DNA of 64,000 nt, taken from assembly GCA_946122785.1 (NCBI GenBank), contig CAMGYJ010000002.1, positions 19,070,492 to 19,134,491 on the forward strand, in the 5' to 3' direction. The notes under the pieces were generated by a model that saw only the letters and a program-made list of their open reading frames with translations, did no database searches and was not told the origin of the DNA. Below, one piece after another: positions 11,434 to 64,000 of the stretch (position 1 is its first letter; every line of letters starts with the position of its first letter). The translations under genes were made by a program, and so were the position numbers. This DNA is from Linum tenue. Lineage: Eukaryota; Streptophyta; Magnoliopsida; Malpighiales; Linaceae.

Positions 11434-11457
11434 CGTGTCCCACCAGGTGTGCCAAAT
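11434..11457 (-). other. Primer-binding region of the non-autonomous element
   Basis: Directly after the 5' LTR, the minus strand reads TTTGGCACACCTGGTGGGAC. The same sequence follows the LTR of the Tat-type element at 47289-47308. This is the expected place for tRNA annealing. The tRNA itself cannot be named with confidence. Confidence 0.75.
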
Positions 11458-33144: not shown

Positions 33145-33184
33145 TAGGACAGTGGAAAAGAACCGGATTGCAATCTTACGAGAT

Positions 33185-41839: not shown

Positions 41840-42150
41840 ATGGGCGAATTCAAGAAGTTTCAGCTTATTATTCGATGGAATGGAAGGGTGACAAACTCTG
41901 ACATTGAGATTGATTATGAGGACGGTGAATCCATTATGTTGAAAATTGAGTCGCGATTCACGTGTTAAGAACTCTATGACATTTGCGCAGACATGGTTTG
42001 TACGAGCGGACAGACGAGAGTTGGTAAAATTACATACCCGTATTGTGGAATTGGTTGCTCCAATCGATATTTCCTCAAGGATCAATCGGGTAGGTGCCAC
42101 TCCACAATGTGCCAGCAGATCAAAGGCACATTGCACAACCACAATCTAGC
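41840..42150 (+). pseudogene. MULE transposase N-terminal relic
   Basis: An ATG at 41840 opens MGEFKKFQLIIRWNGR followed by an acidic EIDYEDGES, the strand pattern of MuDR-type N-termini. A stop at 41966-41968 truncates it at 42 residues. In the next frame ELYDICADMVCTSGQT, then YPYCGIGC, continue to about 42150. No DDE domain follows, since the strand is occupied by the antisense PMD gene. The antisense of this region might also contribute a last exon to the PMD gene, which I could not confirm. Confidence 0.5.
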
Positions 42151-42230
42151 TAAGTACATAATAAATGTAATTTAAAACTAGCTAAGCATGGAATAAATTT
42201 GCAATTAGGATAAGTATGGAATAAACTTAC

Positions 42231-43367
42231 TTGACACCATAGGGGGGATTTTGCAGATTTCGTAGCTCATCATCTGCTCTCCAGTATGAACGTGGGCCTT
42301 GAGGTGCGAAAATTGGAAGATGCTCCCATATCCAGAGCTGGAGGATGAACATCGCAGCACCAGATTGTTTGGCTCCCACCTTCGAGCAATTACAAAGCTC
42401 CATATATATGTCAGCTAACACGGCCGATCCCCAGCTCTTTCCCCCGATCTCATCCCAGTCACCAAGAAGCATTGGCAACCATATGCCTAGAATCCACCAG
42501 ATCGACTTGTCGGGGAACAGAAATCCACCGACCAAACCAATGAGGTAGATGCGTGCATAACGCTCCACTTGATCTTCCTGAGTCTCTGGGCCGATTTCAA
42601 CCTCATTTTGATTGTGAGTAACAAGCCACGTGATCGACACTTGTCCCGTATTCAATGGTGGATGCCCCCGTCCTTGAATTGGTCTCGTGGTCGGCATGTC
42701 AAAGCCCAAACGATCACGAATGAGCGGACTCCAACCTGCATAGGGTTTGGTAGTGGTACCAATGATGGCATCTCCAGTTATCGGCAGCCTGGTGAGGATC
42801 GCAACGTCTTTGAGGGTGATCGTCATTTCCCCCTCCGGAAGGTGGAACGTATGGGTTTCGGGGCACCATCGCTCTACCATTGCCGTAAGCAGTTCGTTGT
42901 CGATTTCAATCCGCATGAAATGCCTCAACATACCCAACCCAGTCCTCTCTATATACAGCGACAGTCGATCATGCCAAGCGGGCAAATTAGTGGTCCCTTA
43001 ATGAATGACGGGAATAAGTGATTCCTACAAAAAATAGAAAATACATCGATTTGTTAGTTAAAAGAAAGCAAAATAAAACCTTACTAAATTATGAAATAAA
43101 GTAAATTGTTGATAAGGTACGTAGTGTTTACCGGATTGTTGTCCCAAATTGCACGGGAGCGATGTGTTTCTTGATCGGTTAAATACCTCGTATCTCTTGG
43201 CCCATAATGGATATACAATCGAGGATCGTATATCTCGGCACCCATATATAAATAACAGTAATGAAATCAGATTGTTTTGATTAAAAAAATCACAAAAATA
43301 AATTGGAAAGATGAAAAAAATCACAAAACAAAAACCAAGAACCTACCCGAAGAGCCTCTTCGTCCAT
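42231..43367 (-). CDS. Plant mobile domain protein in MULE (one stop)
   Basis: Predicted exons are 43367-43347 (MDEEALR), 43233-43132 and 43024-42231, with donors CGG|GTAGGT, CCG|GTAAAC and CAA|GTAAGT and acceptors GCCGAG and TTTGTAG. All three coding exons join in a consistent frame. Exon 2 has LYIHYGPRDT. Exon 3 carries the PMD core: LPAWHDRLSLYIERTG, LPEGEMTITLKDVAILTRLP, and GAAMFILQLWIWEHLPIFAP. One in-frame TAA (42998-43000) lies early in exon 3, so it is probably inactive unless that base differs. An open frame continues past it from 42985. The final exon is unresolved. PMD proteins include the MAIN/MAIL1 factors of transposon silencing. Which of these roles, if any, applies here is unknown. 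Confidence 0.75.
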
Positions 43368-43879
43368 TTTTTTGGCGAAAGCCGGACAGAGTTTCGACGG
43401 GTTTTTAAGGGACGGGAGCTTGGGGTATATAACTCTAGTAATTCTTTCTGATGTGGAAGATTGGACTTAGCTGCAACCACAGAGCATACTTAGAACGAGA
43501 CTAGAGAGGATGAATGGATGGAGAAAGAAGTGTAATGTGGTGGTGTGATTTGAAAAAGGGGGGGAAGTGTTCAATTTATAGGGGGATGGATCTGCCGAAA
43601 ATCAATGCAGATCAATCATCGCCCTCGACAAACGCGGTGAATAAACCGCTTTTGTGGAAAACGATGAATGGCGAGGATCGATGACGTGGGAGTCTGTGAG
43701 GCGTCGGATCTGGAAAGAAAACCAAAATCTACGCCTTACTGCATCCGACGGTAGCGGTGAAGGCCCGTGCGACGCGGATCGCTGACGTGGACAGACGCGG
43801 GTTATTCACCATTTTCGACTAACGCGGTGAATTCCCCCGCGTTTGTCCACGTCAGCGATCCGCGCCAGATTCACCGTGC

Positions 43880-44178
43880 CTGTCAGTTGTAGGGAATAAT
43901 CACCACTTTTATTTAAAACGGTGAATGCCTTCTCCGTTTTAAACGAAAGCGGTGATTGGTTCCCTGCATTTTCACCGTTTTATACAGCCACGGTGAATTG
44001 TTCACCGTTTCACCATAATGCGGTGATTTGTTCACCGCGTTTGTCAAAAACGGTGATGTCATTCATTGTCTTTGACAAAGGCGGCGATTGTGAAACATGT
44101 GTAAATTGGGAAATTTGTTTATAATTTATATATTTTGGGAATTTTTTTTAATTACGGGTGTATATTGGGAATTTTCCC
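43880..44178 (+). repeat. Right terminal and subterminal repeat of the MULE
   Basis: Mirror image of the left end: many CGGTGAAT and TTCACCG words, then AATTTGTTTATAATTTATAT and the terminal TATTGGGAATTTTCCC. It matches the left end in reverse complement. Confidence 0.75.
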
Positions 44179-44179
44179 C

Positions 44180-44708
44180 CTGCATTGGGTGGTTAGTAGC
44201 TATGAATCTACAGGTGGGGTTAGCATTGGATTTGTGCACTCTGGAGTATCGAGTAATTGAACAGCCCATATCAGGAAAGCATGTATTTCACTTGATTTTG
44301 AAGGAACTGGGAGGTTGCCTCGCTATAATTGCTAGTGACTAACCAAAGCCAGTTGATTTGTGGGTAATGAAGAAATACTGGGTAAAAGATTCCTGGACTA
44401 TACTAATGACATTGGGACCGCCAGTGAATGAGCCTTCTTTCCGATTCGTGCTCCCTCTTGCGTATATGGGTGATGGCTCCAAGGTTTTGTTTGTTCAGGA
44501 TAATAACAAGTTCGTTAGCTATGATTTGAGAGGCAAGAAGGTTGAAGAGGTCAGAGTTAGAGGCATATCACACACTTGCGAAGTTACAGTCCTGGCAGGG
44601 AGCCTTGTTAAGCTTAAAAGCAGTAGTGAGGGAGTGGCAAATGCAGGAAACTTGCTCGTGAGTGCAGTGAACTTGGTTGGAATCGGTGTTGATGAGAACC
44701 GGTGCTAG
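44180..44708 (+). pseudogene. F-box gene, 3' part
   Basis: It resumes directly after the MULE: LHWVVSSYESTGG, then a frame change near 44210-44220 to LALDLCTLEYRVIEQP and FHLILKELGGCLAI, a TAA at 44339-44341, then VDLWVMKKYWVKDSWTIL, FRFVLPLAYMGDGSKVLF, and VSYDLRGKKVEEVRVRGI. These are the remaining F-box-associated repeats of the gene that starts at 40502, ending at 44706-44708. Together with the MULE and the frameshift in the 5' part there are at least four disruptions. Confidence 0.85.
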
Positions 44709-45206
44709 TAGAAGAAGAGGAACCAAGGAGAGGTATAGGTTTCAATTCCTTCTTCTGATAAAATGATTAATGGCCTAATTTGACTGAAGCAAAGATCTTC
44801 ATGCAATTTATTTGTTCATTCTGCCTTGTGGTGTTTGTGCTGTCATGTGGATAGTGTTAGACATCAAAACTTTTAAAAAAGTGTCATCAACTTGTATGGA
44901 TCTCAAGTAGATAAGCTTCTCCAGTGCTGACTGGATGGACTTGTATGTTAGTTTCAGTAATGTAGCCTTGTGGTTAAGGGAGTATATACTCCCAGAGTGC
45001 TACTGAGTAGCTATTTGCTCCACTTTGTTGTCGTTGAGCAGGGGCAGAAGCTGCGGGCTTTGAAAGCATGCGGGGGAAAAGTGCGAGGTGTTCTCTTTGA
45101 TTTACTAACGAATAATGTAGAATGATTTTTCTGTTTCAGGCCGTGGGAGGAGAGACTGACAGGAGCCACGCTGATGGTGATGATGTTCTATTTTATGAAC
45201 TAGGAG
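44709..45206. other. Sequence downstream of the F-box pseudogene
   Basis: It probably includes old 3' UTR. A CTGTTTCAG|GCCG acceptor-like site near 45130-45142 is visible but not tied to a gene. Confidence 0.35.
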
Positions 45207-45290
45207 TGTGTTTACACCTAAAAATAATTTTGCTTTTAATATTGCCGGCTTCGCGAGATTAACGACGCCGGTGATAAACAATTTCAGCAG
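45207..45290 (+). repeat. Possible LTR-start fragment beside the large element
   Basis: It begins TGTTTACACCTAAAAATAAT, close to the LTR start TGTTGACACCTAAAATTAAT at 45291, then diverges after about 35 bases. It may be a stub of a related LTR into or next to which the large element inserted, or chance. Confidence 0.3.
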
Positions 45291-47288
45291 TGTTGACACC
45301 TAAAATTAATTTGGCCAGAATTAAATGCCGTGTTAATTAGTCTCGGCATTTAATTCGATACCGCGGGTTAAAAAACGGTATCGTTTGGTGTTGAGCGGGG
45401 CCGCGGAAAATCAAAACGGTACCGCAAGGAAGCACAGCGGTACCGCAACACCGGAAACGACACCGCAGGCCGAAAATAAAAGGGCCGCACGTTTAATGAA
45501 GGTTGGAGGAGGATTTTTGATTATTTAATTATTATTTTTTATTCTTTGTGAGAAGCGGCACCGCGGAGAGTTAAAACGGTACCGCAAGGAAGCTCAGCGG
45601 TGCCGCGGCATTGGAAACGGTACCGAAAAACAAAAGGGGGCCGCGCAGGTGGTTTCTTGTTGGAGAAGGAGTTTTTTTTCTAATTAATTATTACCTTCAT
45701 TCCTTGTCGGAAGGGGAAAATCGGTACCGCATGGAGACAAGCGGTATCGCGGAGAGTTAAAACGGTACCGCGGATTTAAAAACGGTGCCGCGAGAGCATG
45801 GTAAGCGGTACCGATCAATTAATAATCATATCGGGCAAGTGACCAAAATTCACCCGGCCCAATGCGAACGCCGACTGCGGCACGTCCCATGGATTAATAT
45901 TTTTTGGCTATATCGGCGGTGTCGTTTAATTCAAAACGGTACCGCGAGTAAGCCCAACGGTACCGCGGATTAGCAAACCACAGTGTTTAAGTAAGAAACA
46001 ATGTCGCAAAAAGGAAAAACAAACGGAGTTGTTGTGGCGCAGGTGATGTCGTTGGCTATAGTTAGTGATGACCAGATTAATTAACTAATATTGTTAATGA
46101 TTATTTAGGACGGTGTCGTTAGTTGAAAACGATGCCGCAAGAGGAAAGAAACGACATCGCGGATTATAAAACGATACCGCGAGTAGGCCAAACGATGCCG
46201 CAACAGTTAAAACGACAGTGTTAAAATTAAAACAGTGTCGCGAAGCTCAAAAGTTCAACGACATCGCGGGACGAGGAAACGATGTTGTTTAACTAAGAAC
46301 GACGCCGAGGGGTGAAAGTTCGACGGCGAGTTAACAATGAGGGCAGGTCTAATTAAGTAGTATTTTATTATTATTCTAGACGGTGTCGTTTAAGGAAAAG
46401 CAATGCCGCGAAAAAGTAAAACAACATCGCAGTAGTGATAAAAGTTTGGCCGGCCAAAGGCAACTCGCCAAGCCCAACGATGGCGCAAGAGTATAGAACG
46501 ACGTTGTTTGACGGACTAACAATGTCGTTGGTTAAACCGGGGCGGGGCAGTTGAGTCGGATTATAAAACGACACCGGTTGATGAAAGGCAATGCCGTGGT
46601 GTTGGTGAAACGGCATCGTTACATGGACAAGGGTGTAGGTCGTTTCGCCGAGTTTTCTGCAAAGCAAGAGCGGTTTCGAGGGCACGTGATTATCACGCAA
46701 CAAAGAGGAAGTTACCTGCACGATTGACAAGAGTGAAGACGTGGGAGACAAAGGCGCGAAGGCAGTTACTACGACGAAGAGAAGCGCGAAGTATAAAAAT
46801 TTGGAAGAGAGAGAAGTTCGAGACGGCAAAATCAACTCACAAACTGCACCGCAGATTATCAGTTTTTCTCTCTAGTTTTCGTAGAACCGCTCTGTCAAAG
46901 ACCTCCTTTGCAGAGTCGTAGTAGTCGTAGATCGTAGTCGTAGTTGCGGAGCTCTCCAGAGGAACCTCCATAGGAGTAGAGGTAACGTAACTTAGAACGC
47001 TCTTGGTTTGGTTTCTCGTTTCTCGTTGAACACCCTCGTTCGAACGTAGTTTGGAGAGGTGGTGAACCGAGTACGATTGTTTGATTAGAAGTCAAAGGTG
47101 CATCGATCAAATCAACGACGCCGACACCGGCGGCGGCCATTTGACGATCGTCTTGGTTTCTTCTTTAATCGATCAAATCAACGGCGCCGACATTCGGCGG
47201 TGGATATTTGACAGTTGTGATTGACGTGTGTTTTGTGTTTTTCTTGAAAACCGTGCGCAGTTAACACACGAGTTTCGCCAACGAAACA
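45291..47288 (+). repeat. 5' LTR of the large gypsy element
   Basis: The LTR is 1998 bp with TG...CA termini. It has a high density of the palindromic words GCGGTACCGC, ACGGTACCGC and CGATACCGC over 45360-46600. It resembles the shorter LTRs at 7825-9009 and 11458-12642 in its ends and these words. The region from 46830 onward resembles their U5-like part in reverse. Confidence 0.88.
46792..46799 (+). promoter_or_regulatory. TATA-like box in LTR
   Basis: TATAAAAA lies about 490 bases before the LTR end, a plausible place for the U3/R border and the genomic RNA start. The shorter LTRs have an analogous AATAAAAG on their transcribed strand. Confidence 0.45.
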
Positions 47289-47308
47289 AATTGGCACACC
47301 TGGTGGGA
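47289..47308 (+). other. Primer-binding region of the large gypsy element
   Basis: The sequence starting AATTGGCACACCTGGTGGG follows the LTR end directly, the usual place for the tRNA primer. The same motif follows the 5' LTR of the non-autonomous element at 11434-11457. Confidence 0.75.
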
Positions 47309-47321
47309 CACGTGTGTTCGA

Positions 47322-50300
47322 ATGGCTCCGCGACGAAGGAATCCGGAAGGGGATGTCCCGCCCGGAATCGTGGAGGAACATGTGGCCAACATTGAAGGAG
47401 GCCAAGGAATCGGTGCTGAAGACATCGGCGGGTCCGAGAATCCGCCGTCCACAGCTGGGCCGACTGGGGATTTGTCAATCCGCCATTTCATGGAGGAAAA
47501 CCGTCGCATGTTTGCTAGCCTCAACAATGAGTTCGCAGGCTTCAAAGGCGAGGTAAATCAACGTTTTGACGCTTTAGCTGCACGACATGATTCTCTTGAG
47601 TCTCGTGTTGATAGGCGTTTAGGCCAACTCTTTGAAGTTGTGACTAAAAACAGACATGATTTTGATGTTTTCGGGGATAAAAATCTACGTGATATGAATG
47701 AAATCAGGGAGCTCTTGGGTAGACCAGTTATGCAACCTAGGGATTTGCCGCTAAACGGTGAAAACAATTTAAACAGCGAAACTGGTTGTCCAAACAACAG
47801 TGCTCGGATTAGTCCGCCAAGACAAGGAGCTTCGCCGACACCGGTGATGAACCCACCAACTCCGCGAGTTAATCTTGGTGAGACTAGCACTGCCGCTAAC
47901 ACTCGGGTTGAACCACCGCCGTTTCACGGTGTTGGTCCACAAAATATCCCGGAGGCCAGACCCTACGTGGCTCCGATGAGCGGTGCTGGTGGTGGAGGAA
48001 CTATCAACAATGATCATGTTCCGCCACGCGGCTACCCACAAAACGTGCCTCCTCCTCCAAACGGGCTTGGCATGGATCCTGGTGGATTCGTACCACAAGG
48101 GGGGCAACTCGGGGGGCAAGACGTTAATGCGATTCGAGATCAAGTAGCACAGATGCTGGCGGATCAGTTTGGTTTAGGGATTAGACCAGCGATGCCGCCG
48201 GTGTATCGAAGACCATATCCGGATTGGGTTGATAGATACTACCCCTTTCCACGTGGTTTTCGCGTGCCTGATTTCATCACCTTCAGCGGGACTGGGGATC
48301 AGTCCACCGTCGAGCATGTTGGACGATTCACGGTTCAGTGTGGTGATGTGAGTGATTTCTTGAAGTTGCAATTGTTTGCCAACTCGTTGACCGGCCCTGC
48401 ATTCGCGTGGTACGTCAACTTGCCATCGAACTCGGTTCAAACTTGGCAGCAAATGGAACAAATGTTCCATGCCCAGTTTTACCGTTCTGAGCCAGAAGTG
48501 ACAATGGCAGACTTGGCACGAATGCGCCAACAGCCAGGAGAAACAGTGGAACACTTTTTAACGAACTTTAAAAATGCAAGAAATCGCTGTTTTGTGAACT
48601 TGACAGAACGCGAGTTTGTTAAACTGGCCCAGGGTGGATTGAATTTTGAACTTCGTAAAAAGTTTCAAGATAGGGAGTTTTCTGATTTGTTTCAACTGAT
48701 GTCCTGCGCTGTTAGATATGAATCTCTTCTCCGTGAAGAAGAACATAAGAGAAGTGGCTCTCGCGGACAATATTTCCCTAATTTTGAAAACTATGGTGTG
48801 AATAACGTCGGCAACGATGTTGACGAGGTTGAAGTTGATTTGGCCGAGATTGTGCAAGGGAAGCCATATGTGTGTGCTTCTCTAGCCAAGGCCGAGGGGG
48901 AACCACAAGGTGGAAAGCCCAATCGTGCTCCTATTCAAACTAGAAAATATTCCTTTGATGTCTCAAAATCAGAACTGATTTTCGACCAGCTTTACAAAGA
49001 TGGTCAAATTAAGTTGACTGGGGGGCATACTATCCCGCCAGCTGAAAAATTAAAAGGGAAACGATACTGTAAATGGCACAACAGTGCATCTCATTCAACT
49101 AACATGTGTGTTGTGTTTCGCAATGTTGTGCAGGATGCAATTGAGAAAGGTCGGTTCAAGTTCCCAGAGCCGAGGAAGGAGGCCATGATTGTTGACACAT
49201 ACCCATTCCCAAACGTTGTCGGTGTCAACATGGTCAATCCCGACTTCTCTAAGATCAACCTGCCACGTTTCAAGCTGGTGGTAGATACAACGCCACCGCC
49301 GAGTGGTAGTTCTGATGTGGCCCAGGGAGCTTCATCCTCCCAAGTGCAGGAGGGGCCACGCTTGGACCCAACTGAGGAAGAGAAGCTGTGTACCCAGTGT
49401 CGCGGGAAGCTAAACATTGGGGGAGCAGGACCGAGCCAGTCGGTCCAGCAGAGATTGGGACCACGACAGTTCAGACTGAGGTACCCATCATATGAACGCA
49501 GCGTTGAAGGAGTACGTGCACCTGCGTGGGGAAGAGGGCAACGCAGGCAGTGGGTTGCTCAAAGCGCCCCACCTTTTAAAAGTCTCCCTTTTGGACTTGC
49601 CCAACCGATGAGAGCTCCCCCACCTGTTAGGAGAACCTTCAGGATGCCAAATGTGCCACGGGGTGGTTGGCACACCTACGACGTCCGTCGTCAGCAGCCC
49701 ATCGCGGTTGACGCGATGACAAGGACGCAGTATCGAAGGTACCTCCGCAAGAATGCTCAAGGAAGGAGGATTGCAAACTTGCAAGCAAATGTGAACGTAG
49801 ACAACTCTGCCACGGGTCTGAGAGTGACTGTGGCCGGTGCTGGAAAGGTTGTCGAGGACAACCTGGACGGGAACGATCAGGGAGTCCCGGGGGAGGCTGA
49901 GTACGATGCTGAGTTGGATGACTCCCTCATCGAAGAGGAGATGCTGGAATTGGAGGAGCCGAAGTCGAAATTCGATCGGAAAAACAAGGATGACGATGAT
50001 GACAACCAAGGTGCACCCATGACGATCCAGTTCGGAAGTCTACCACCGGTGGTGGTGAACAACTACATCTTGCCTTTGATTTTCCACATTGATTTGGAAA
50101 ATCAGGGAGAGGATGGCGAGGTCGTGATGGAGGTTGAGGAGTTGGACGAGGCTGGTCAAGAGGTCAACGTTGCTGAGCTGGTGAGCGGTTTTGCTCAATT
50201 GACTTTATATGAGGAGAATGAGGAGCCAGCGGCGGCAGAGGTGGTTGGCGAATCTGCGGATCTGCCAATCGAGGCTGAGCCGTGGAGTGCAATGATGGCT

Positions 50301-51245
50301 CGCACGAATGGTCGAATTGACTTGGCAGTGGAGTCAGCCAAGCAAAACAAGAGTTCGCAGCGAATCTTGAAAGAGCTGTACGAAGCAGGCCACAAAGCTG
50401 TTGGGCTACTGGGCGAAGATGAGGGAAGATATCCTTTTTACGTGTTATACCAAGGCCCGAAAGAGTCAACAAGTGTGCCAGTGGAGAACATCACATGGGA
50501 ATCAGACTTCGACAAGCTGGAGAAATCTATCCAGGCTGCAGAAGCGAAAGGGAAAGCCGTGGACGAAGGAGTCATGAGTGAAGAATTGAACAGGGTCGTT
50601 GTTTTCAACGAGCCCGAGCCGAAGATGATGCGTCATTTGAGGCCTCTCTACATCAAAGCCACACTTGACGACGTACCGATGTCGAGAGTCTTAGTTGACA
50701 ATGGCGCCGCAGTAAACGTGATGCCAACAAGGATGCTGAAGAAGTTGGGCAAGAACACTAATGACTTGATCCCAACAGAAGTGTTTGTGACAAGTTTCAA
50801 TGGCGGGTCCACTTCTGCTAGGGGAATCCTCCTAGTGGTCGTGGGAGTTGGATCACAGAAGCGGATGAGTGCTTTCTTCGTGGTGGATGGAATGATAAGC
50901 TACAACGCACTACTTGGCCGGGATTGGATCCACGCCAACAAGTGTGTTCCTTCATCACTGCATCAGTGTTTGATGTTTTGGAATGAAGACGGTGTTGTTG
51001 AGGTGGTACAGGCTGACACAAAGCCGTTTGCCGTTGGGGCCAACGTGGCTGAAGCTTATTTGTACCATGGAGATTTTGGACCACTCGAAATCAGGAGCGG
51101 GGATGGAGGAACGACCAACGTCATAGTGTCGAGTGTGCAGGTGTTGAGTAAGGCGTGCTTGGATCCATTGTCCGAAATTGTGAGACCATCGTTGATCACA
51201 TTGGATGGTCCACTGAAGTCTGATGAACAAGTCGATGATGAGTGA
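47322..51245 (+). CDS. Gag-protease polyprotein
   Basis: The 1307-residue frame starts at the first ATG after the primer-binding region. Residues about 55-130 form a predicted coiled coil. The Gag core lies at about 315-475, with GPAFAWYVNLP near 358 and the M..Q..GETVEHFLTNF block near 401. A Cys/His segment CKWHNSASHSTNMC (583-596) replaces the usual knuckle, as in other Tat-type Gags. A long low-complexity linker with an acidic stretch follows. The protease has LVDNGAAVNVMP near residue 1124 (DNG in place of D[ST]G) and the LLGRDWI end. The stop TGA at 51243-51245 overlaps the pol frame by 23 bases. No lesion is visible. Confidence 0.9.
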   Translation: MAPRRRNPEGDVPPGIVEEHVANIEGGQGIGAEDIGGSENPPSTAGPTGDLSIRHFMEENRRMFASLNNEFAGFKGEVNQRFDALAARHDSLESRVDRRLGQLFEVVTKNRHDFDVFGDKNLRDMNEIRELLGRPVMQPRDLPLNGENNLNSETGCPNNSARISPPRQGASPTPVMNPPTPRVNLGETSTAANTRVEPPPFHGVGPQNIPEARPYVAPMSGAGGGGTINNDHVPPRGYPQNVPPPPNGLGMDPGGFVPQGGQLGGQDVNAIRDQVAQMLADQFGLGIRPAMPPVYRRPYPDWVDRYYPFPRGFRVPDFITFSGTGDQSTVEHVGRFTVQCGDVSDFLKLQLFANSLTGPAFAWYVNLPSNSVQTWQQMEQMFHAQFYRSEPEVTMADLARMRQQPGETVEHFLTNFKNARNRCFVNLTEREFVKLAQGGLNFELRKKFQDREFSDLFQLMSCAVRYESLLREEEHKRSGSRGQYFPNFENYGVNNVGNDVDEVEVDLAEIVQGKPYVCASLAKAEGEPQGGKPNRAPIQTRKYSFDVSKSELIFDQLYKDGQIKLTGGHTIPPAEKLKGKRYCKWHNSASHSTNMCVVFRNVVQDAIEKGRFKFPEPRKEAMIVDTYPFPNVVGVNMVNPDFSKINLPRFKLVVDTTPPPSGSSDVAQGASSSQVQEGPRLDPTEEEKLCTQCRGKLNIGGAGPSQSVQQRLGPRQFRLRYPSYERSVEGVRAPAWGRGQRRQWVAQSAPPFKSLPFGLAQPMRAPPPVRRTFRMPNVPRGGWHTYDVRRQQPIAVDAMTRTQYRRYLRKNAQGRRIANLQANVNVDNSATGLRVTVAGAGKVVEDNLDGNDQGVPGEAEYDAELDDSLIEEEMLELEEPKSKFDRKNKDDDDDNQGAPMTIQFGSLPPVVVNNYILPLIFHIDLENQGEDGEVVMEVEELDEAGQEVNVAELVSGFAQLTLYEENEEPAAAEVVGESADLPIEAEPWSAMMARTNGRIDLAVESAKQNKSSQRILKELYEAGHKAVGLLGEDEGRYPFYVLYQGPKESTSVPVENITWESDFDKLEKSIQAAEAKGKAVDEGVMSEELNRVVVFNEPEPKMMRHLRPLYIKATLDDVPMSRVLVDNGAAVNVMPTRMLKKLGKNTNDLIPTEVFVTSFNGGSTSARGILLVVVGVGSQKRMSAFFVVDGMISYNALLGRDWIHANKCVPSSLHQCLMFWNEDGVVEVVQADTKPFAVGANVAEAYLYHGDFGPLEIRSGDGGTTNVIVSSVQVLSKACLDPLSEIVRPSLITLDGPLKSDEQVDDE

Positions 51246-54200
51246 ACCACCTCGAGAGAAGGTGGTGGAGGCCGAAATCACGGCCTTGAGGGAGAAGTTG
51301 GCCGTCTATCAGTGTGAACAGAGGCTGGCCTGTATAGAGCCTGTCTTGATGGCCGACTGTGTTCCCGACGATGATGACTTGCCGACTAACGGCGAGGGTG
51401 TGAGTGACGAAGTAGAGAAGAAAAGCAACCTTGCTGCGTGTGACATTTTAGAGGAGATCAACCTCGGCACGGAGGAGGATCCACGCCCAACCTTCATCAG
51501 TGCCGGTTTGCCAGAGTCTGACAGGTACGAATTAATTGAGTTCCTTAAAGAGTTTAAAGATTGCTTTGCATGGGATTATCATGAAATGCCTGGTCTCGAT
51601 AGGAAGTTAGTTGAACATAGACTCCCAATTAAAGAAGGGTATAAGCCACATAGACAACCACCTAGGCGTTTCTCGCATGATATCTTGCCGGAAGTGAAAA
51701 AGGAAATTGAACGTTTAATAAAGGCTAAGTTTATCAGGACTGCTAGATATGTGTTATGGTTGTCTAACATTGTGCCTGTTAGAAAGAAAAATGGCAAAAT
51801 ACGTGTTTGTGTGGATTTTAGAAATTTGAACAATGCTACACCGAAAGATTTGTATCTCATGCCGGTGGCTGACATGTTAATCGATGTCGTAACCAGGCAT
51901 GTCAGGTTTTCTTTCATGGACTATTGCTCGGGCTATAACCAGATATACATAGCCGAGGAAGATGTACACAAAACGGCGTTTCGGTGTCCAGGATCCATTG
52001 GCTGTTTCGAGTGGATCATGATGCCATTTGGATTGGCCAACGCCGGGGCAACTTACCAATGAGCCATGAATGCAATATTTCATGACCTGATTGGCGAGCT
52101 TGTCGAAGTGTACGTGGACGACATCGTCGTCAAATCAAAGGTGACAAACCACCACCTTGCTCATTTGCGCAAAGCATTTCTGCGTATGCGTGTTCATAAG
52201 TTGAAATTGAATCCGCTCAAATGTGCATTTGGTGTGAGTGCAGGAAATTTTCTTGGTTTTCTGGTAAACCAACGTGGAATTGAGGTAGATGGCAACAAAA
52301 CAAAAGCCATCATCAATGCCGCACCACCATCCAGTAAGAAAGAGTTGCAACGTTTCCTCGGCCAGGTAAATTACATTCGAAGATTTATCTCGAATTGTGC
52401 TGGCCGGACCCAAGTGTTTTCCTCACTGCTGAAGTTGAAGAAGGAAGACAAGTTTGTATGGAGGGAAGAACATCAACGAGCATTCGATGATATCAAGAGA
52501 TACCTGGCGACTCCGCCGGTGATGAACTCTCCCAAAGCAGGGGTGCCGCTGAAGTTGTACTTGTCGGCCATGGACACTTCTGTGGCATGTTTGTTGGCTC
52601 AAGACAACGAAGCAGGCAATGAAGAAGCCATTTATTATCTAAGTAGGCTTCTGAACGAGGGCGAGAGAAAGTATTCACCCATAGAGAAGTTATGTTTAGC
52701 GTTGTACTTTTCTTGTACAAAGCTACGCTACTACCTGGTCCCTGTCCAGGTACAACTCATTTGCCAAACAGACTTGATTAAATACATGCTATCTCGGCCA
52801 ATTATTCATGGCCGAATTGGCAAGTGGACCTTGGCTCTGTCTGAATTTAATTTAGAGTATGTACCTCAACGAGCCATGAAAGGGCAAGCATTGGCGGACT
52901 TCTTGGCAGATCATCCCTGCATTGAGGTGCCAATCGATCCCGTAGAAGTTTGCGAGGTTGGTATAACGCCATGGGTCCTGTATTTTGACGGATCCAAAAC
53001 TCATGGCGGTGCCGGGGCTGGCGTGATGTTGAAAGCACCATCAGGCCGGGCCATGCATTTTGCATTCTCGTTGGATTTTCCTTGCACCAACAACCAAGCT
53101 GAATATGAAGCTTTGGTAGTCGGGCTGGAAATTCTCATAGAGCTTGGAGCCCGCTACGTGGATGTTAAGGGAGATTCACAGTTTGTGGTTCATCAGGTCC
53201 GCGGAGATTTTCGCTGTATCAATAGTGTTCTAGAAACATATCTGGACCATGTGTTGTCGTTGACTTCCCACTTTGACAGTATGGCGATCAACTTTGTTCC
53301 TCGAATAGACAATTGCGAAGCCAACTATCTTGCACAAATGGCTTCGGGATTTAGAGAGTTTGCGAAAAGCAATGCAGTAGAGCAAATAGTGGTGCAAACA
53401 CTTAAGCCCTTGCGGGAGCGATTGAAAGTTGAGCAAGTGTGCGTAATAGAGAAAGACGCCGAGGACTGGCGTGCGCCACTGTTGTCCTACTTGCAAGATC
53501 CGAACAAGGTTGTTGACCATGCCATCAAGTTTAGAGCAAGGAGCTACGTAGTTTTGGATGGGACCTTGTATAAACGCATACCTGATGGGTTATTGCTGAA
53601 ATGCTTGGGGGGCAAGGAGGCATTGCAAGCCATGGCAGAGGTGCATGAAGGGATATGCGGAGCTCACCAAGCCGGTCCTTCCATGCGATGGATTCTACAT
53701 CGCTATGGATTTTACTGGCCCACCATCGGGCCAGATTGTGCCGCATATGCCAAGGGTTGCGAAGCTTGTCAACGTCACGGTCCTGTTCAAAGGGCGCCGG
53801 CGGTTGACCTGAAGTCAATAATCAAACCGAGGCCATTTTATGGTTGGGCCATGGATTTGATTGGTATGATTTATCCCCCATCGTCAAAGAAACATGTTTT
53901 CATAATTTTGGCCACTGACTACTTCACTAAGTGGGTGGAGGCCAAACCATTGAAGGTGGCGAACCAAGAGGAAGTGATTTCTTTCATACAAGAACATATT
54001 ATTCACCGATTTGGTTTGCCGGCAACGATAACGGCGGACCAAGGAACTGTGTTCACTGGGGGGCAAGTTATGGAGTTCGCGGTGGAGCGGGGGATAAAGA
54101 TTATCCATTCCACTCCGTATTACGCACAAGCTAATGGGCAAGCGGAAGCATCCAACAAAGTCGTGAAAAATATTTTGACGAAGATGATCGAGGATAATCC

Positions 54201-54729
54201 GCGACGTTGGCATGAAATTTTATCAGAAGCGTTGTGGGCATACAGGATGTCCCCGCAGAGCAGTACGAGAGTGAGTCCATTCTCGTTAACTTACGGTCAT
54301 GAAGCATTCCTTCCCGTGGAGGTGACCGTCAACTCACTCCGGTATATGAAGCAACACGAGTTGACACCTGAGGAGTATCATGAATCAATGATGCTTGAGC
54401 TCTGCGATCTTGATGAACTTCAACTCCACGCCCTTGATAATGTTCAAGTACAGAAAGCAAGAGTGGCAAGAGCTTATAACAAGAAGGTTCGGCATAAATC
54501 GTTCGAAGAGGGCGAACTGGTTTGGAAAGCTCACTTGCCAATTGGGGAAAAAGATCCCAAATTTGGAAAATGGTCGCCAAATTGGCGTGGACCATTTGTG
54601 GTACATTCGGTGCGTCCTAATGGAGCTTACTTGCTGAAAGACTTGGATGGAGTGATGCATGAGCGTTTAATAAATGGCAAATATTTAAAGCCATATGTGC
54701 CGTCCTTATGGGACGCAGTTGGTCATTAA
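51223..54729 (+). CDS. Pol: RT, dual RNase H, integrase (one stop)
   Basis: The frame lies +1 relative to gag-protease. RT motifs: KKNGKIRVCVDFRNLN, FSFMDYCSGYNQI, then YVDDIVVKSK with the catalytic YVDD. TGA at 52060-52062 interrupts between RT motifs, in a codon that most elements have as Arg (CGA to TGA is a CpG-type change). The first RNase H spans about 52530-52850. The second, archaeal-type, has VLYFDGSKTHGGAGAG, then NNQAEYEALVVGL, then GDSQFVVHQV. Integrase has HEGICGAHQAGPS...CEACQRH, then AMDLIG, TADQGTVF and QANGQAEASN as the DDE triad, and a C-terminal GPFVVHSVRPNGAYLL. The single stop is the only lesion. Translation past the gag-protease stop would need a +1 shift or a separate start. 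Confidence 0.92.
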
Positions 54730-55281
54730 TCTGAATAATGACGATCAACCATGTGCTAAAAGGGTGTGGCCTCGTCGGCCACCAAGCTTGCACAACGTGG
54801 TTGAATAGTACGACAATGACGAAGTAGGCAACAAATAAACTAATTCGCCAGCTTCGTTACCAATAAAGAAATTTTTTAATGCCTTTAAGGCCAGCGGCAG
54901 GGTTCACTCGAGTCCAGCCGGTGCGGTACCGCTGTTCGGTACCAAAATGTTCCAACCTTATCAAACGAAGTTGTTTTTGCCACGAGAAGTAGGCATGGGT
55001 AACAGCGTTGTTGGGCATAGACGATTCGGTACTTGGCATAGGAAAAATCAAGAAGGCTATCGTGGCTAGAACTAGCCAGTCAGCCATTCTCAAACACGGC
55101 CATCGAGGTTAGAGAGATTAAAGAAAAGAGAGCGGCCGTTTGCCAAAGTTAAATAAACAATGATGAGCAAACAAAGTTGTTCATAGGTCGAGTTAACATG
55201 GCAAATAAAAATATGCAATCCGAGAAACGAAGCCAAAACAAAAATCCAAGGTAAATTCCGAAATGCAGAAAAAGAAATGCT
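54730..55281 (+). other. Spacer between pol and antisense PMD gene
   Basis: I see no coding potential. Transcripts from the element and from the antisense PMD gene would converge here, so terminators for both are expected but not identified. Confidence 0.5.
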
Positions 55282-57565
55282 TTAGGAGTCTGATGGCTCG
55301 TGATCGGCGAGCTGCTGGGCAATGCGGGATAGAGTGGTGCGGACCCGAGTGAAAAAGCTTTGCACTGCTTGCAGCTCAGCCTGTGCTTCTATCTCAGCGC
55401 GAGTGGGGTCAGTGGCGAGCTGGGCCGCATCCTCACGTCGCATTTGTTCAGCCCCTTTGACGATAGTCGGCATTGTACTTGCTCTAACCACCTGCAGAGC
55501 TGGTGCCACGGCCTTCCCGCGTTCCACTAGGTCTTTACCCACTGTGCGGAGGAACGCCATGTCAGCAGCACAAAGTGGTGGAATGTCAATGCTTAAAGTC
55601 TCCAGAATTTTGCAAGCAGATCCGGGCCATACTATGGTTTGGTCACTCATGGAAGTCACCAGAGGAATGCTAAGAAATTGATCCATCATCTTCAATGCTT
55701 CTCTGACTCGGCGGCGAAGTGCAGCCATGGGTGGCGTGGGGAGTGAGCTAGATGATTCCATCGCAGGGTTGAGGCCGTACCTGGTGTTACAATCAGCGGT
55801 GTCATGCTGCAAAAAAGAAGCAGGGGTGTGAGTGGGAGTTTAGCTAAAAGATGGTCACGCAGTCGTGTAGTATGGGAAAGCATGAGGAAAGCTAACCTCG
55901 ACGAGGGGAGTGGTGCGAAGATATGGAGGGGGGCGAGTAGGTGGATGATGACTCTCAATAACTACAACAATTAAGGTTTCAAAAGGGCGGCGAACACTTA
56001 CATGAGTAATGCCGGAGTTAAAATATGAAAGTCACAGCAAACATAAAGAGGAGTGCGAGAACGAGGGTCGTACCTGCTCGCCGTTTCAAGTGAGTCTTGA
56101 ATGCTGATGTAGTTGAACCACCATCATGGTCAGAAGCAAGCCAGGCGAGGACATCAGATAATGGCTGGCCGAAAATGCAGAATGATAGTGAAGACCACGC
56201 ATCCTTGAACTGGGGCGAGACGTTATTCACCACGTTTTTATGAGGAGGAAAATATTGTGCAGTTTCTTGGTAACCTCGTACCTCCATAATTTGCCCAGCG
56301 GTAAGCTCCGAAGAGCGGATGTGGAATGTTGGAAAATTCAAGGACAGGGGAGGTAACATAGGCCATGCTTGAACGAGGTTGAATTGTCGAGCCGCAAGTT
56401 GAGGGTTGTACGTCTCGATACTGAGTACTTCTGAGCCGGTAGGAGCAAAGAGGAGGTCCCGAGCTGTTAGGTAGCGATTGCGTTCCTCGATGAACTCATG
56501 GTAAGCGGCGGCAGTGGGATCACCTCGTGGTGGTGGCTCGTCAAAAGCGAGTTTGAACGAAGCGGGGCCAAATATCCATTCTGCGAAAGGGGTGAAGCTG
56601 GGAATCTCCCTGACCCCATAAAAGAAGGTAAAATAATTAGTGAAATCCCCTTTCCGCGAAGCTGCTTTAGCCAAACAATGGCCGTATGTGAGCATGGTAG
56701 TATCTTGAACGGCCGTTTGAAGAGCTGGTAGAGGGCCGCAAGTCGTCGGGAAATAAGCATGCAGCCAAAGTTGTAGTAGCCATAGAGGGCCAGCATTGAG
56801 GATGCCACATGCGTCTGAAGTCTCATTGACACGGTTCACGATGGTGTGCAGACCGCGATAGAGGTGGCAGAGCACAATTTCATCGAGATTGACGCATTCA
56901 CCAGTGAAGATTGCAAAGGTAGTACGCGCATCCGTGATGGATTGTTGGGTGCAAAGCACGAATCGACCAAACCAGTAATGAAGGAAAGCAACCCGCTCGC
57001 TGTCGGATACGGGTTCACCCGGGACGACTGGCGCGTTGTTGTTGTAGAGCGATTCGTAGGATCGATCAAGAGCTATCGAGGTAGCTGGGGCCAAAGCTCT
57101 CCTTGATTGCATGCGCGGCTTGGATAGGCCAGTCAGGGCCGCTATGTCGAGCAGAGTGATCGTCATCGAGCCCAATGGGAGCACGAAACAGTTCGATTCC
57201 GTTGACCAGAAGCAGATAGCGGCTTTGAGCAATTCGGGATCAGGGCTTGGCAGCTCTGAACATAGAGAGAGGAAGCGGTCGAGGCCTAAGGCCTGCCATT
57301 GAGATACAGTTGTGGCATCATGGGCCAACCGACCATGCCAACGTTTGAAGTCGGGATCCGGGATGGCCAACGGGAGGGCTCGGGTCTTCCAGTTAAAGAG
57401 GGGACTGATGTTGGGAAGACGAAACAGAAGCTGGGAATCGTGAATTGGAAAGGCATCCAAAAGCTCCATAATGGCAGTGGACCGATTGCGAATGAGCGGA
57501 CCAAGCCATCCCTCCTCATTGTCGTCTTTCGATATTATCTCGAGGGTGAAATCAGCATTGGCCAT
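55282..57565 (-). CDS. PMD gene, copy B (three exons, intact)
   Basis: Exons are 57565-56074, 55961-55897 and 55806-55282. Donors are GCAG|GTACGA and GTCGAG|GTTAGC. Acceptors are TTGTTGTAG and TTTTTTGCAG. The phases fit (1492, 65 and 525 nt), giving about 693 residues with no stop. The PMD core shows LDRFLSLC, ICFWSTESNCFVLPLGSMTI, LLDIAALTGLS (about 95-150) and GPLWLLQLWLHAYFP (259-273). Exon 1 ends LKRRA. The C-terminal exon 3 encodes a helical region (VREALKMMDQFLSI, LRRVGKDL-type, IEAQAELQAVQSFF). It is antisense to and downstream of pol. Related antisense PMD frames have been noted in Tat-lineage elements. Its job is unknown, and silencing suppression or transposition support are only conjectures. 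Confidence 0.87.
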
Positions 57566-60165
57566 GTTTTCCAGAAAGTCCCGTCGTTCCCCCGGAGATA
57601 ACGGGAGGAGAAACGCGGCGAGGCTGCAGTCAGAAAAAGATTAGTTGGGTTAGTGATAGCCATACATCCAGTGGTGGCTATTCGCCAACGAAACAATTAT
57701 ACAGGCCTAAACAACGTTGTCGAGCTGACACAGGTCACTACGAAAAAAAAATATAATAATCTACAGCATTGCAAGGGGTCTTGGCAACGGTGTTGGAGTA
57801 GAATTCTATTTGGCCAAAATACTTGGCTGCGAGATTGCGCAATAAAAAAAAAAGAAATTGAAGGGAAGGAGCGTTGTTGTGGAGCTTGCCGCAACATTGC
57901 AAGTAAATATAATATATATAAAAAAGGGCGATGGTTTGTCAAACAAAACTGCAGGAGTTCGTTGCAGCGTTGCGAATGATGGGGGAAAATGAGCCGGTTT
58001 CAATATCAATGCGAAGTTGAGATTGCAGAACTTACTCGGTGATCGACGAGAATCCTGGCAATGACATGGCGGCGACGTCAGCTGCGCAGAAATTTGAGGT
58101 ACGGCTTCCTGCTCAATGGATCGTTGTTGAGTAAAGTTTTGTTTTTGGTTTACTCGGATAAATTTAGGGTTGGCACATGGGACCTATTTATGGAGAATTG
58201 TTGCGGTGAGGTAGAAGGAGGTAGTATCCTTTTTGGTTTGGGATTACAACGTTGGAAGGGAATAGGATCCGCCAACGCTGCCAAAGCAGCATTGCAGAGA
58301 TGGACCGGGACTAGGCACGCGGTTTCGTTGAGGCGGGAAACTTGTCGTCGCATTTGGGCCAGGTACGTTACAACAAAAAAAAAATTCAACTCTGGCCCAA
58401 GCAACATCGTAGGGACGTAAGGTTGTTGTAATTTGGTTTTAATGTCGCGACAGCAGTGGTGCAGACTAAACAACATTGCAAACCAAAACAAAAATAGTAC
58501 TGCAACTCCGTGTGTTTACATGATTGGGAGAGACCGTGCTGGTCAGTAGTTTTAACGATGTGGTTAAAAGGAAAAAAGGTTCAAAACGCGGCCGCTTTCG
58601 GGTAAAGCCGAGCTGCAAAGCTGTGCAGCGGTGTTGTTTTTCTTTCTCGCCACGGTGTCGTTTGGGATCGCAAGACAAATCGGAGCTGTTTCTGGAGAAA
58701 TGGCTTTGCTATAGTGGGAAGTCTATTACCGCTAAGCTATTGAGCCCGACTTTGTTAAGCTATGTCCTGGCGTTGAGGATAGAAAGGAAACAAGGCACGT
58801 TTGTTTTTCAGCCTAAGCAGCGCTATAGAGTGGTGTGACGATGTTGTTTTCTTTTCTCTCCGGGACAAACGTTGCATAGAGCAAAAAGTCCATAGTTGTG
58901 GCAGGGTGGGTTTTTCCCTGATCGGGAGGAACACGAGGCCGTTTCGTGACGGGGTTGCAAGTTTATTAGCCCTTGATCTGAGAGATTAAGAAGTAAAGTT
59001 GAAGCAGGCTTGCTTTGGCCAAAACGCCACCGTGTCAAAATAACAGAGACTGCATGGCGATATAAGTTGGCATGGAGTGAGATTGGTTTGGCTCAAAACA
59101 AGGCTGTCATAGTCTTCTTATTTTTTTTATTTCAAGGCCAAGATAGAAGACAGCAAAACAACATTGTTTTGGTTGCTGCAAAGTTGTTTGCGAAAAGAAG
59201 TCTCGTGGTGGTTTGGTGGCCAAAATAATCAGTAGTGTAGATAATTTAAATTGGCCAACAAAACTAATGAAAAGGTAGGAGGGAGGTTTTGGTTCGGAAC
59301 CATGCTACCGGGGTATTGTTGAGTTATTAAATTTTCCCCATTTCCAGCCATGCAGTGACCAAATTACATGAATTGGCCAAACAGTATAGGTCGTCAACAG
59401 CGTTGCGGAGCTGGCCGTAATGTTGTTGGTCGATGATTGAATATGGCAATAAAATGTGAACTCTCCTGTTTCGAGCCAAGCAGCGCTGCGGGAGCAGCAA
59501 CTACGCTGGCGGGAGAAGAGAAAATTTCTGCTAATGCATGGCGGCATGCATTGACGTGAAAAAAAAAGAGAAAAAAAAAGAAAGAAATTTCTCTTGCCGC
59601 TGTTGCAGTCAGCTTTGGCGGAAAAGAAAAAAAAAATGGGCCAAGCAGTATTGCTAAAGAGGGAAAGTTTGCCGCTGCAGTGTTGATTCGAGTTGGCCAA
59701 ATCTTGATTAAAATTACAATAAAAAAGAGTTCTCATCCTGATTATAATTGTCGACGAGGGATCTAACAGGCCTGACAAAAATCTTTTGGGCCAGACCCGG
59801 TCGGTTTGAGCTAAACAGGGTTGCAGTCCTGTGTAGCTGTTGAAACGTGCAACGAGACTGTTTCTTTGGCCTAAATAGCCTTGTCGAGCTAGCATTGCGA
59901 ATTAAGAATATGGTGAAATGCCACCGTTTGGAACGCCAAAGCAGCGCCGCGACATTGTCTTAGGGATTAGGTGCGGCGAGAACGACATGGTTACTGAAAT
60001 ATGGTAGAGCGAATTTTTCGGCATCGAGGATGAACTAAAGTAGAACAGTTCTGATTGTTTAAAAGAGCAAACCGACAGCAAAAGGAACATTCGTGGCCGC
60101 ACGAGCGTGCCGAAACAAAATAAATTCAGTTCGAAATAAATAAAGGCAGTAAATGTAACGAGCTT
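57566..60165 (+). other. Non-coding region between PMD copies
   Basis: No protein is supported in 2.6 kb. It contains recurring words such as GCAACGTTGC, CAGCGTTGC and GGCCAAA, long A runs (57740, 57845, 58378, 59560) and at 59500-59560 the sequence TGCATGGCGGCATGCATT. This last is shared with the 3' internal region of the non-autonomous element at 7825-12642. The PMD copy B promoter should lie at its left edge near 57600-58100. Confidence 0.6.
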
Positions 60166-63100
60166 CTAGTCGGTGAGATGCTTGGCTATATAGGCCAGCT
60201 CCGCCCGCAATGTGTCAAGACCGGTCCTTGCTGCCTGCCGAAGTTGAACGACCTGCGCCTTTCGAATCTCAAGCTTGTCATCAACTAGTGTTGTTTCTTG
60301 CGCCACCAATGTTTGAGTTTCAGCTGCGAGAGTAGTGATGGAAGCCTGCAGCTTTGTGCGGCGAGAGACATCTTCAGCCAACTCATCTTTCTTGACCTGC
60401 ACATCTTGCTCGAGTTGTTTCAGTTCGGCCTTCATCGCAGCAATTTTGGAGTCATCTGACTGAATTTCTTGTTCGCGAGTTGCGCATCGCCGAGAGTGAG
60501 CTTCGTATTGGGAGGACAGATCATTGAAGCGCACCGTGTTAGCGACGAGACGCTCTCTGATTGATTGGAGGGCAGTTCCCCTTTCAGCACTGTGTTTCTC
60601 TAGCTCGAGGGCGTCATAAGCACACTTCATGTATTTTTGCGCGAGTTGCTGAGCTTTCTTGGCAGCAGCAGTTTCTTCCAACCCAAGTCCAGGCAAGATT
60701 TCAGAAGGACCCAATCCGCTCAATACTGTAAAAGCCGATTCAAGCTCATTTCGCTGTGGAGGGTCGACCGCTTCTTCTAAGGAAAGGGAGAGAAATGGAA
60801 TGATCCGGCCAATGGCATTTTTTATGGCTTGGGTTCGTGGAGCAAGGCGGATCTCGGTAGAGGGTGGAGTTCGATTTTTTGCCAATGAAGTGAAGAACCG
60901 CACCGCTGTATCAAGATCAGGTACGCCCTGCAAATCATGAGAATGAATTAGTGAGCCACAACTTAGAAAGTTGAAAGCTTTCTAGCAAGGAAAGCATAGC
61001 TAGATTTACCGTGGGGGCCGAAGTCGGTGAAGCCGTACCCATGGTAGAAGGAACGGGTCTTGTAAGGTTGGAAAAAGGGGAGGATCGAGCTGCGAGGGGT
61101 GCGAAAGATGGAAGGACTGAGCTAGCAAGAGAGGTGGGGGTGGAAGTTGGCATTGTGACCCCGAAGCTAGCACGTTTGAGCGGAGGCATGGTTAGAGCAA
61201 GGATGGTGTCGTTTTCTCCAGCAGACAAAGTAGGCGCGGGGCTAGCGGAAGTAACCAATAAGGAGCTAGTTGGGACAGATGGAACGGTGGCACTCTCCTG
61301 TTCAGTCATCAAGGGCGGAGCAGAGCCGGTGTTCGACATTGAATCAGCCACGGGTTGGCTAGCTTGTGCCACAGGAGCCGAGTTATGTAAAATCGCTGCA
61401 TCATCGTCAGGGTCGATCTCAGACTCAATACTCATGGAGTCCGAGGTGGATCGAGTCTCTTCTCCCGACTCATCGGTTCCCGGATCCTACAAAGAATGAA
61501 AAGTTGAATTAAGAAGCAAACACTGTTGCACCTAAGACAACGTTGCTAGTGTGGTACAAGTATGGCCGCATGGATGCATGGCGGCTTTGGGCGGGCCATT
61601 ATAGGCGTTGGAAATGGGAGTACCAGGTGGTCAATTTATCAAGATTGCAAAGGAGGTGAAGTGAATGAAAGAGAGCACGACAAATTGGGCCACAAGTGAT
61701 AATATACCCAAACTAAAGCAAATGGCGCCCTAAAAGAGGTCGTAATAATGGGGAGATAAGGTGGTAGTACGTACCTCAACAGTGAGGCTTGAACGGATCT
61801 GTTTAGTCGGACGAACGCCGCCCGGTGATTTCCCGGAAGCTGCACAGGGTGAAGAGCCATGTAAATGGGATAAATTAACGCACCACGAGATAGGATAAAT
61901 AAGAAGAAGGTGTAGAGGCTTACATGCTCGACGCTTTGCAGAATCCTGCGAGGGAGATACGATGAACTCCTCATCGTCATCATTATTGTCAGCTGCACCA
62001 CGCTCGCACTGGGTTATGCGGCTAATGACGTTGGCTGCCAAGTCGTTAAAGTATCGAACCTCTTTGGAATTCCAGGCCAATTGGAACAATGGTGTTACTA
62101 CGCCGTCTGTTGCGGTGAAGTGCTTAAAAGCATTGGGAAGCAAGAAATCACAACACGCTTTCACATCTGCAATATCCTTCTCCGAGAGGTCTGCGAGTCG
62201 CGAGTGTAACCGCGGGTAGTTTTTTGAAAAGGCCAGAGGAATGGGCCATTGTTGTGCTAGGCCGAACTGGCGTGAGGCAAAGTGGGGATTGTAGACCTCG
62301 ATACTGAGATCGTTCGAGGCTTCAGGGGCAAAGAGCATGTCTCTCGCCACTATCCAGCGAGTCCACTCTTCCACGTACCAGTTGTAGTCACCGAGGGAGG
62401 CGTCTCCTTCTGGCGGTTTTTGGTTGAAAGCAAGCCTGAACGACGGAGGTCCAAACAGCCGAGCTTCAAATGGAGTAAAGCACTCGACGTCTCCGGCTTC
62501 GTAAAAAACCGGGAAGTATGTAGCAAAGTCCTTTTTCAGCGGGGGAGCTTTGGCGTAGTAATGGCCATATGACAAGATCGCGGTATCGTGAGCCATGTCG
62601 GCGGGGGCAGGCAACGAGCCCCGTACGGCAGGAAAATAAGCATATAACCACAGCTGCAACAACCAAAGAGGGCCCGCGCCGGTGACTTGCTTGGCCTCGG
62701 TGGCTTTCTTGATTTGTTGGACGGTCAGGTACATACCCCGATAAAGGTGACATCACACCACTTCAGCAAGGTTCTCGCATTCCCCGGCATCAATTTGGTA
62801 GGTGGAATTGATCGCTTGCACTGGTTGACCGCCGCCGGGACAGAGAATGAATTTGTTCAACCAGTAATGGATAAAGTAGGCCCGCTCCCCATCGGTGATC
62901 GGTGCCGCAGGGTCAGTTGGAGAATTGGTGTTGTAGAGCGAGCGGTAGGAGCGATCAAAGGGAATAGGGTTATCACGGTTGAAAGGGAGTCTAGCGATGG
63001 TAGGAGAGCGATGACGAGAGAGGCCAGTTAACGCGACGACGTCAAGCAAGGTGATTGTCATGGTTCCAAATGGGAAACCGAAGCTATTGGATTCTGTGGA

Positions 63101-63536
63101 CCAAAAACATATGGCAGCTTTGAATAAATCGGCATCTGGCAGAGGAGGATGGGCACAAAGAGATAAGAAGCGATCTATGCCAGCATCCCTCCAATGAGAG
63201 ATAGTGGTTTCATCCGCAAGTAGGCGACAATACCATCTCACAAAAACTTGTCCAGAGAGAGCCCAGGAAGAGAGTGTTCGTTTCGGTTTCTGTTGGGCAA
63301 AGAACGGAGTTGGCGCGTGACGGAGCAGAAGCCTGGCTTGGGAAACAGGATAAACATCTAGCTTGTTTATGGACTCGTCGTCACGATCGGTTATGGCAGG
63401 GCCGTGCAAACCCGCACCCTTGTTCGTTAATGAAAGTGTGTCGAGTTCTATGGCGGGAGAGTTGTCTAGGTTCCGCCATCTTTCCTGGGGATCATCGATG
63501 CTGCATACATGGGCCGCGAGGTCGGGCGGTGGTGGC
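60166..63536 (-). pseudogene. PMD gene, copy A (four exons, one stop)
   Basis: Exons are 63536-61924, 61839-61775 (65 nt), 61486-61010 and 60927-60166. Donors are GCAT|GTAAGC, GTTGAG|GTACGT and CACG|GTAAAT. Acceptors are CTTGGCAG, CTGTGCAG, TTTGTAG and GATTTGCAG. Phases are consistent and the exon 2 length equals copy B. The PMD core matches copy B (ICFWSTESNSFGFPFGTMTI, GPLWLLQLWLYAYFP, exon end KRRA). Exon 3 is Ser/Thr/Pro-rich. Exon 4 encodes a long coiled coil (KAQQLAQKYMKCAYDALELE, MKAELKQLEQDVQVKKDELA). A TGA at 62753-62755 lies where copy B has Leu. The start is unresolved, because the exon opens with an acceptor and an upstream exon is expected around 63600-63920. Confidence 0.8.
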
Positions 63537-64000
63537 CTGCCAAGAAAAGAACCAGGTATGTTCAGTCATTCTCATGATCGGAAGTGTAATTCCCGGTCAC
63601 TCGACGAGGCAAGTTGCGGCGGCATGGAAAGCGAAAGGGAGATAAAGCAACCAGTGTAAAACTACCAGGAGCAGGTACGTTATCGTTTGTTCACAAGGGC
63701 ATAATTGCATAAATAATATACGTACCAAAGGTAAAAACAAAACAATGAAGCAAGAACATATATATATGCATGCCATTATTCTCCCGCAAGTTTACGTGGG
63801 CATATGTACTAGCATCATCTACATGACTACATTTAATATTGTCGTGGAATGGCGAGTAACGAGAAGGGAGCAAGAAGTTCAGTACTGTTTTTGGGGAGGT
63901 GTGCGGCCGCCGGGAGCCATGTCGGTGCCGTGGTGGATGAGCGCCGGCTGTGTTTTGTATGCTTGAAGAAGAAGTTGGCGGCGGGCTGGCGAGTACTGTC
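63537..64000 (-). other. Upstream intron or leader of PMD copy A, window end
   Basis: A branch-like and pyrimidine-rich stretch ending CTTTTCTTGGCAG precedes the copy A exon. An ATGGCTCCCGG at about 63910-63920 on the minus strand could begin an upstream exon. The 3' LTR of the element is not seen. Confidence 0.4.

Follow-up and report, generated by a model that had tools for sequence, protein, structure and literature searches.

Does the region 3′ of pol in a large plant retrotransposon hold two spliced genes on the strand opposite to the element's own reading frames, and do these genes belong to the element? The initial annotation of the window (the whole 64-kb stretch of DNA analysed here) described two related antisense, multi-exon PMD (plant mobile domain) genes 3′ of pol in a Tat-type element, and the predicted exon structure, matches to the Pfam family PF10536 and a second, archaeal-type RNase H (aRH) in pol agree with that description. 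We call the genes A (55–58 kb) and B (60–64 kb), both on the minus strand (Table 1). Judged from sequence, they are probably genuine genes of the element family, with spliced transcripts.

The host retrotransposon

We assign the element, from a Linum-type plant, to the Tat lineage of Ty3/gypsy retrotransposons, within which it is Ogre-like. The pol ORF, with a single in-frame TGA at 52060–52062, carries RT_RNaseH (161–261), RVT_3 (307–426), Integrase_H2C2 (519–572) and rve (588–686). It thus has the second, archaeal-type RNase H besides that of RT by which the Tat lineage is recognized, and RVT_3 precedes both integrase domains, the placement of aRH between RNase H and integrase that REXdb uses to delimit the Ogre or Retand clade (PMC6317226). 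A PMD in the extra region, an Ogre-clade trait, is present. The Ogre-clade intron (~274 bp, between the gag-protease and RT ORFs) was sought, with no strong sense donor found there, and the gag-protease and pol ORFs overlap by 23 nt; we therefore name the element Ogre-like and not Ogre. A primer-binding site for tRNA-Arg is a further criterion of the Ogre clade. No match to TRP28 (PF04195), whose antisense presence is a Retand-clade trait, was reported among the exons of genes A and B. In a flax study, Ogre reaches ~39% in L. narbonense (PMC6391757).

Because 36–64 kb holds no direct repeat of LTR length, we place the 3′ LTR beyond the window, which gives the Ty3 element a length of at least 18.7 kb.

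Table 1 Coordinates of the Ty3 element, genes A and B and the spacer between the genes (window numbering).
Feature	Position	Strand	Evidence or remark
5′ LTR, 1998 nt, TGTTGACACC..GAAACA	45291..47288	+	ends set by alignment with both LTRs of the small element 7825–12642
Putative primer-binding site TGGCACACCTGGTGGGAC	47292..47309	+	adjoins LTR; kept in small related element
gag-protease ORF	47322..51245	+	Retrotrans_gag 8.3e-13; gag-asp_proteas 9.7e-5 (below cut-off)
pol ORF: RT, RNase H, RVT_3 second RNase H and integrase, in order	51223..54729	+	
Gene A exon 4, includes stop	55282..55806	-	no Pfam family above cut-off
Gene A exon 3, 65 nt	55897..55961	-	sole middle exon from blind enumeration
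Gene A exon 2, PMD, 1550 nt, phase 1 donor	56074..57623	-	PF10536 4e-19
Gene A exon 1, 32 nt, phase 2 donor, spliced to 57623	58036..58067	-	donor rank 8/116, next acceptor 5/123
Spacer between genes A and B	58068..60165	.	14 LTR-motif matches vs 0.4 expected
TATA-like ATAAATA, 124 nt 5′ of gene A ATG	58185..58191	-	read from sequence
Gene B exon 5, includes stop, helix-like C-terminus	60166..60927	-	Pfam matches all sub-threshold
Gene B exon 4, 477 nt, Ser/Pro/Thr-rich, no counterpart in A	61010..61486	-	
Gene B exon 3, 65 nt	61775..61839	-	sole middle exon from blind enumeration; weak acceptor, rank 23/174
Gene B exon 2, PMD, 1613 nt	61924..63536	-	PF10536 in two pieces; phase-2 acceptor at 63536
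Gene B exon 1, tentative, 35 nt	63886..63920	-	phase fits; weak donor, rank 64/162 GT sites

A degenerate motif of the LTR recurs in the spacer between the two genes; it was picked by eye after inspecting the sequence, so its enrichment, there and in 45208–47290 (33 matches, 0.3 expected), is descriptive. Three matches lie in 54730–55281 (0.1 expected), three in gag-pol (0.8 expected), one in each gene and none in the flank 44200–45200; the first 20 kb hold 47 (1.5 expected), most of them in LTR sequence of the small related element. That spacer and LTR have this motif in common argues for the spacer being part of the same Ty3 element.

The small LTR element (7825–12642, minus strand) has LTRs 97.9% identical and a 5-bp target-site duplication (CCTTG); it has its LTR ends and primer-binding region in common with the large element, its ORF 9931–11010 has a weak gag likeness (29% over 106 aa) and, judged on the 64-kb window, it probably belongs to the same family as a non-autonomous relative. 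A third PMD (42230–42985, minus strand; PF10536 1.4e-40) lies inside a 3-kb element at 41116–44179 with 66-nt inverted ends that are 88% complementary and flanks, CTGTATTGG and CTGCATTGG, alike at 8 of 9 positions; going by these features in the 64-kb window, this is a MULE-like DNA transposon with a PMD. MULE-borne PMDs are recorded in several grasses and Amborella, eudicots having mainly genic PMD-C (PMC5418596, PMC7156037). The window also contains LINE-type RT pieces (13317–18706, minus strand, and 22204–22869, plus strand; RVT_1, Exo_endo_phos, zf-RVT), an ion-channel gene (32230–33192, minus strand; Ion_trans_2, 1.3e-30), a tandem repeat at 1919–2817 (period 445, 2 copies, 97% matches) and tandem arrays at 36265–37765 (periods ~340 and 204).

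Exon structure of genes A and B

The profile check that the initial annotation had proposed gave PF10536 in both genes, at 69.4 bits in A (cut-off 34.9) and, in B, as one piece above that cut-off (1.1e-10, 41.7 bits) and a second slightly under it (4.5e-8, 33.1 bits). All eight exon edges named earlier (56074/55961, 55897/55806, 61924/61839 and 61775/61486) fit GT..AG introns with phases 1 then 0. The PMD exon closes on KRRA in A and B, as does the equivalent place in two Linum trigynum proteins (P0001, P0002), and the exon after it ends on Val-Glu in phase 0 in both genes. The edges held; the exon list was incomplete, lacking the 5′ exon of A, the fourth intron (61009–60928) and last exon of B, and a tentative exon 1 of B. 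With these added, the introns flanking the PMD exon are of phase 2 before it and phase 1 after it in A as in B.

Of the two copies, it was B that had been described as intact, yet its PMD exon contains an in-frame TGA (62755–62753), so that B, taken as the 61–63 kb gene, is not intact; the intact copy is A, with a predicted protein of 723 residues and no internal stop. The C-terminal exons had been said to contain helical or coiled-coil regions. A helix-like C-terminus stands for B, whose last exon has 0 Pro and 2 Gly among its last 163 residues, whereas a coiled coil is only suggestive: 44 of 500 shuffled sequences reached the heptad score of A, and for B, where 289 of 500 did so, the test gave no support.

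We enumerated middle exons 3′ of the PMD exon blindly, keeping the donor of the PMD exon constant and allowing introns of 60–400 nt, exons of 20–200 nt, lenient thresholds and any phase, and obtained exactly one open middle exon per gene, each of 65 nt. Among 3000 dinucleotide-preserving shuffled pairs, any middle exon was found in 200 A-type and 195 B-type sequences, in both members of 14 pairs, and with equal length in 1; the equal 65-nt exon in A and B is more than chance. The final counts used thresholds lower than those of the first strict setting, and stricter thresholds lost one gene or the other. At that first strict setting, whose thresholds were at or just over the rounded scores of A, the 65-nt exon came out for B and none for A; at the strict setting of the final run, it came out for A and none for B.

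Sites were scored with rounded, approximate splice-site weights. Of the seven donors, six ranked in the top 8 (among 116 GT sites in A and 162 in B); of the seven acceptors, six came within the top 6 (among 123 AG sites in A and 174 in B). The donor of the tentative exon 1 (rank 64) and the exon-3 acceptor (rank 23), both of B, were the exceptions. AT content is 53–63% in introns and 34–50% in exons. Taken together, the sequence evidence indicates that A and B are spliced.

Divergence, relatives and competing readings

Over 541 aligned residues, the PMD regions of A and B are 42.5% identical, with identities of 0.567, 0.678 and 0.364 at the three codon positions, pS of 0.757 and pN of 0.371; this pattern points to saturated synonymous sites and a constrained protein. 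By blastn, A and B gave four matches at E ≤ 0.003, all inside the PMD exons. Three protein searches, each scoring ~8000 candidates, yielded three L. trigynum proteins (P0001–P0003), which were the nearest among those scored, and one protein each from Coffea arabica (961 aa) and Trifolium pratense (a 905-aa fragment). Identity to A is 85% for P0001 and 88% for P0002 (to B, 44% and 42%); for P0003 it is 66% to B and 43% to A. Given these separate A-like and B-like proteins and the saturated synonymous sites, we regard A and B as old sister genes. The L. trigynum gene models run counter to the splice model: those of P0001 and P0002 read into the post-PMD intron and end there, and that of P0003 starts within the predicted first intron of B.

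In both the Coffea and the Trifolium protein, the PMD is accompanied by a low-complexity linker and a long C-terminus. Among the C-terminal exons of A, B, Coffea and Trifolium, no significant similarity was found (6 pairs; at the lowest, 103 of 1000 shuffles scored as high). Pattern matches in viral contigs, 2 for the gene A PMD exon and 4 for the second pol ORF, confirmed no relative. A PDB sequence search returned 0 matches, and AlphaFold2, given 7 aligned rows for the PMD exon, reached a mean pLDDT of 32.4 and yielded no usable model.

The shared introns had been taken to prove that the genes were duplicated as genomic DNA. That step does not hold, because antisense introns are not lost from the sense genomic RNA and would be kept under duplication through reverse transcription as well; for the same reason, the related claim that such introns would outlast retrotransposition stands.

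For the locus as a whole, we lean towards two antisense accessory genes, paralogues of old date, occupying the region between pol and the 3′ LTR and encoding nuclear regulators. Transcription of each would start within the element, on the minus strand, and the host would do the splicing, giving an RNA that runs from a short N-terminal exon through the PMD exon and a linker exon of 22 codons to helical exons at the C-terminus. Since the genes run opposite to the element's sense RNA, their introns would be kept in the RNA genome and passed on by retrotransposition. The proteins would most likely regulate element expression or silencing in the nucleus, comparably to HBZ of HTLV-1, perhaps via the host PMD–phosphatase machinery (MAIN/MAIL1/PP7L), to which they are related through the PMD; taken by itself, this specific function is a doubtful proposition.

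A plainer account would have single-exon PMD frames, each protein ending in the post-PMD intron (that of A with a short hydrophobic tail), and downstream ORFs that are separate or due to chance. The models of P0001 and P0002 end exactly there with a tail resembling that of A, but B lacks a hydrophobic tail, the annotated L. trigynum models may be without RNA support, and a middle exon equal in length and phase in A and B, set against the single shuffled pair in 3000, leaves this account unlikely. The genes could instead belong to an insertion nested at this site, or make up a gene cluster of their own, 3′ of a 3′-truncated Ty3 element, as the 3′ LTR is absent from the window and the PMD-bearing DNA transposon at 41116–44179 is close by. 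We hold this to be quite improbable: gene A ends only 553 nt past pol, the spacer carries the LTR motif, the four inverted-repeat pairs (22–34 nt) in 54.7–64 kb include none that bracket A and B as terminal repeats, and a PMD at such a position is usual in Ogre (PMC6317226). There is likewise only a slim chance that the antisense RNA is what functions, as dsRNA or small RNA against the element, with the frames as relics; this has been put forward for antisense frames generally (PMC7264820) and would suit the interrupted B, but it sits poorly with protein constraint despite saturated synonymous sites and with an intact A.

Relation to known systems

Genes of this kind are known, as the initial annotation had held, since PMD extra frames occur in 57% of Ogre elements in REXdb (PMC6317226), and PMD is the commonest extra domain in surveys of orchid and other Gypsy elements (PMC9289625). 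In REXdb, a frame had to span 250 codons or more to count as an extra ORF (PMC6317226), and because surveys took uninterrupted frames, introns would have been invisible to them. In the open-access literature searched, we found no description of the spliced structure or the gene pair, and within that literature the spliced, paired form appears to be new; Vicient and Casacuberta had called for a search for antisense and spliced transcripts (PMC7264820).

There is a little under an even chance that Tat/Ogre PMD accessory genes are commonly multi-exon and antisense, with introns kept by their orientation, and that the Linum two-gene cassette, made up of paralogues that diverged long ago and differ in their C-terminal modules, represents two accessory functions in a single retrotransposon. 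If this is general, surveys of uninterrupted frames logged mainly PMD exons, and the full proteins would be those to use in silencing assays. With an element that preserves introns, intron-bearing PMD genes could plausibly pass from element to host or the reverse; Ikeda et al. leave that question open (PMC5418596).

The closest comparison is with the PMD extra ORFs of Ogre/Tat elements (REXdb eORFs; PMD-A1/A2 of Ikeda et al. 2017), which likewise have a PMD in the extra region and belong to elements with an additional RNase H domain flanked by RNase H and integrase. Those ORFs are described as uninterrupted, whereas the genes here are multi-exon and form two diverged copies with different C-terminal exons. 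The ORFs of Retand, Grande and RIRE2 (TRP28, gene23) are likewise antisense and lie between pol and the 3′ LTR, and an own promoter and a nuclear protein are reported for gene23; they encode TRP28 (PF04195) where the Linum genes encode a PMD. Vicient (2025) describes antisense TRP28 ORFs in Retand, and a word search of the main text of that paper found neither 'intron' nor 'mobile domain' (PMC11963269). HBZ of HTLV-1 is, like the APH proteins, encoded by an antisense spliced gene of a retroelement (PMC10186651) and is a nuclear regulator; there, the protein is unrelated, the promoter is in the 3′ LTR and the gene is single, so the likeness is an analogy of working only. The PMD family itself spans elements and hosts: the PMD-A clades are Gypsy-encoded, whereas MAIN and MAIL1, of host clade PMD-C, are host genes that act in silencing with PP7L (PMC5418596, PMC7156037).
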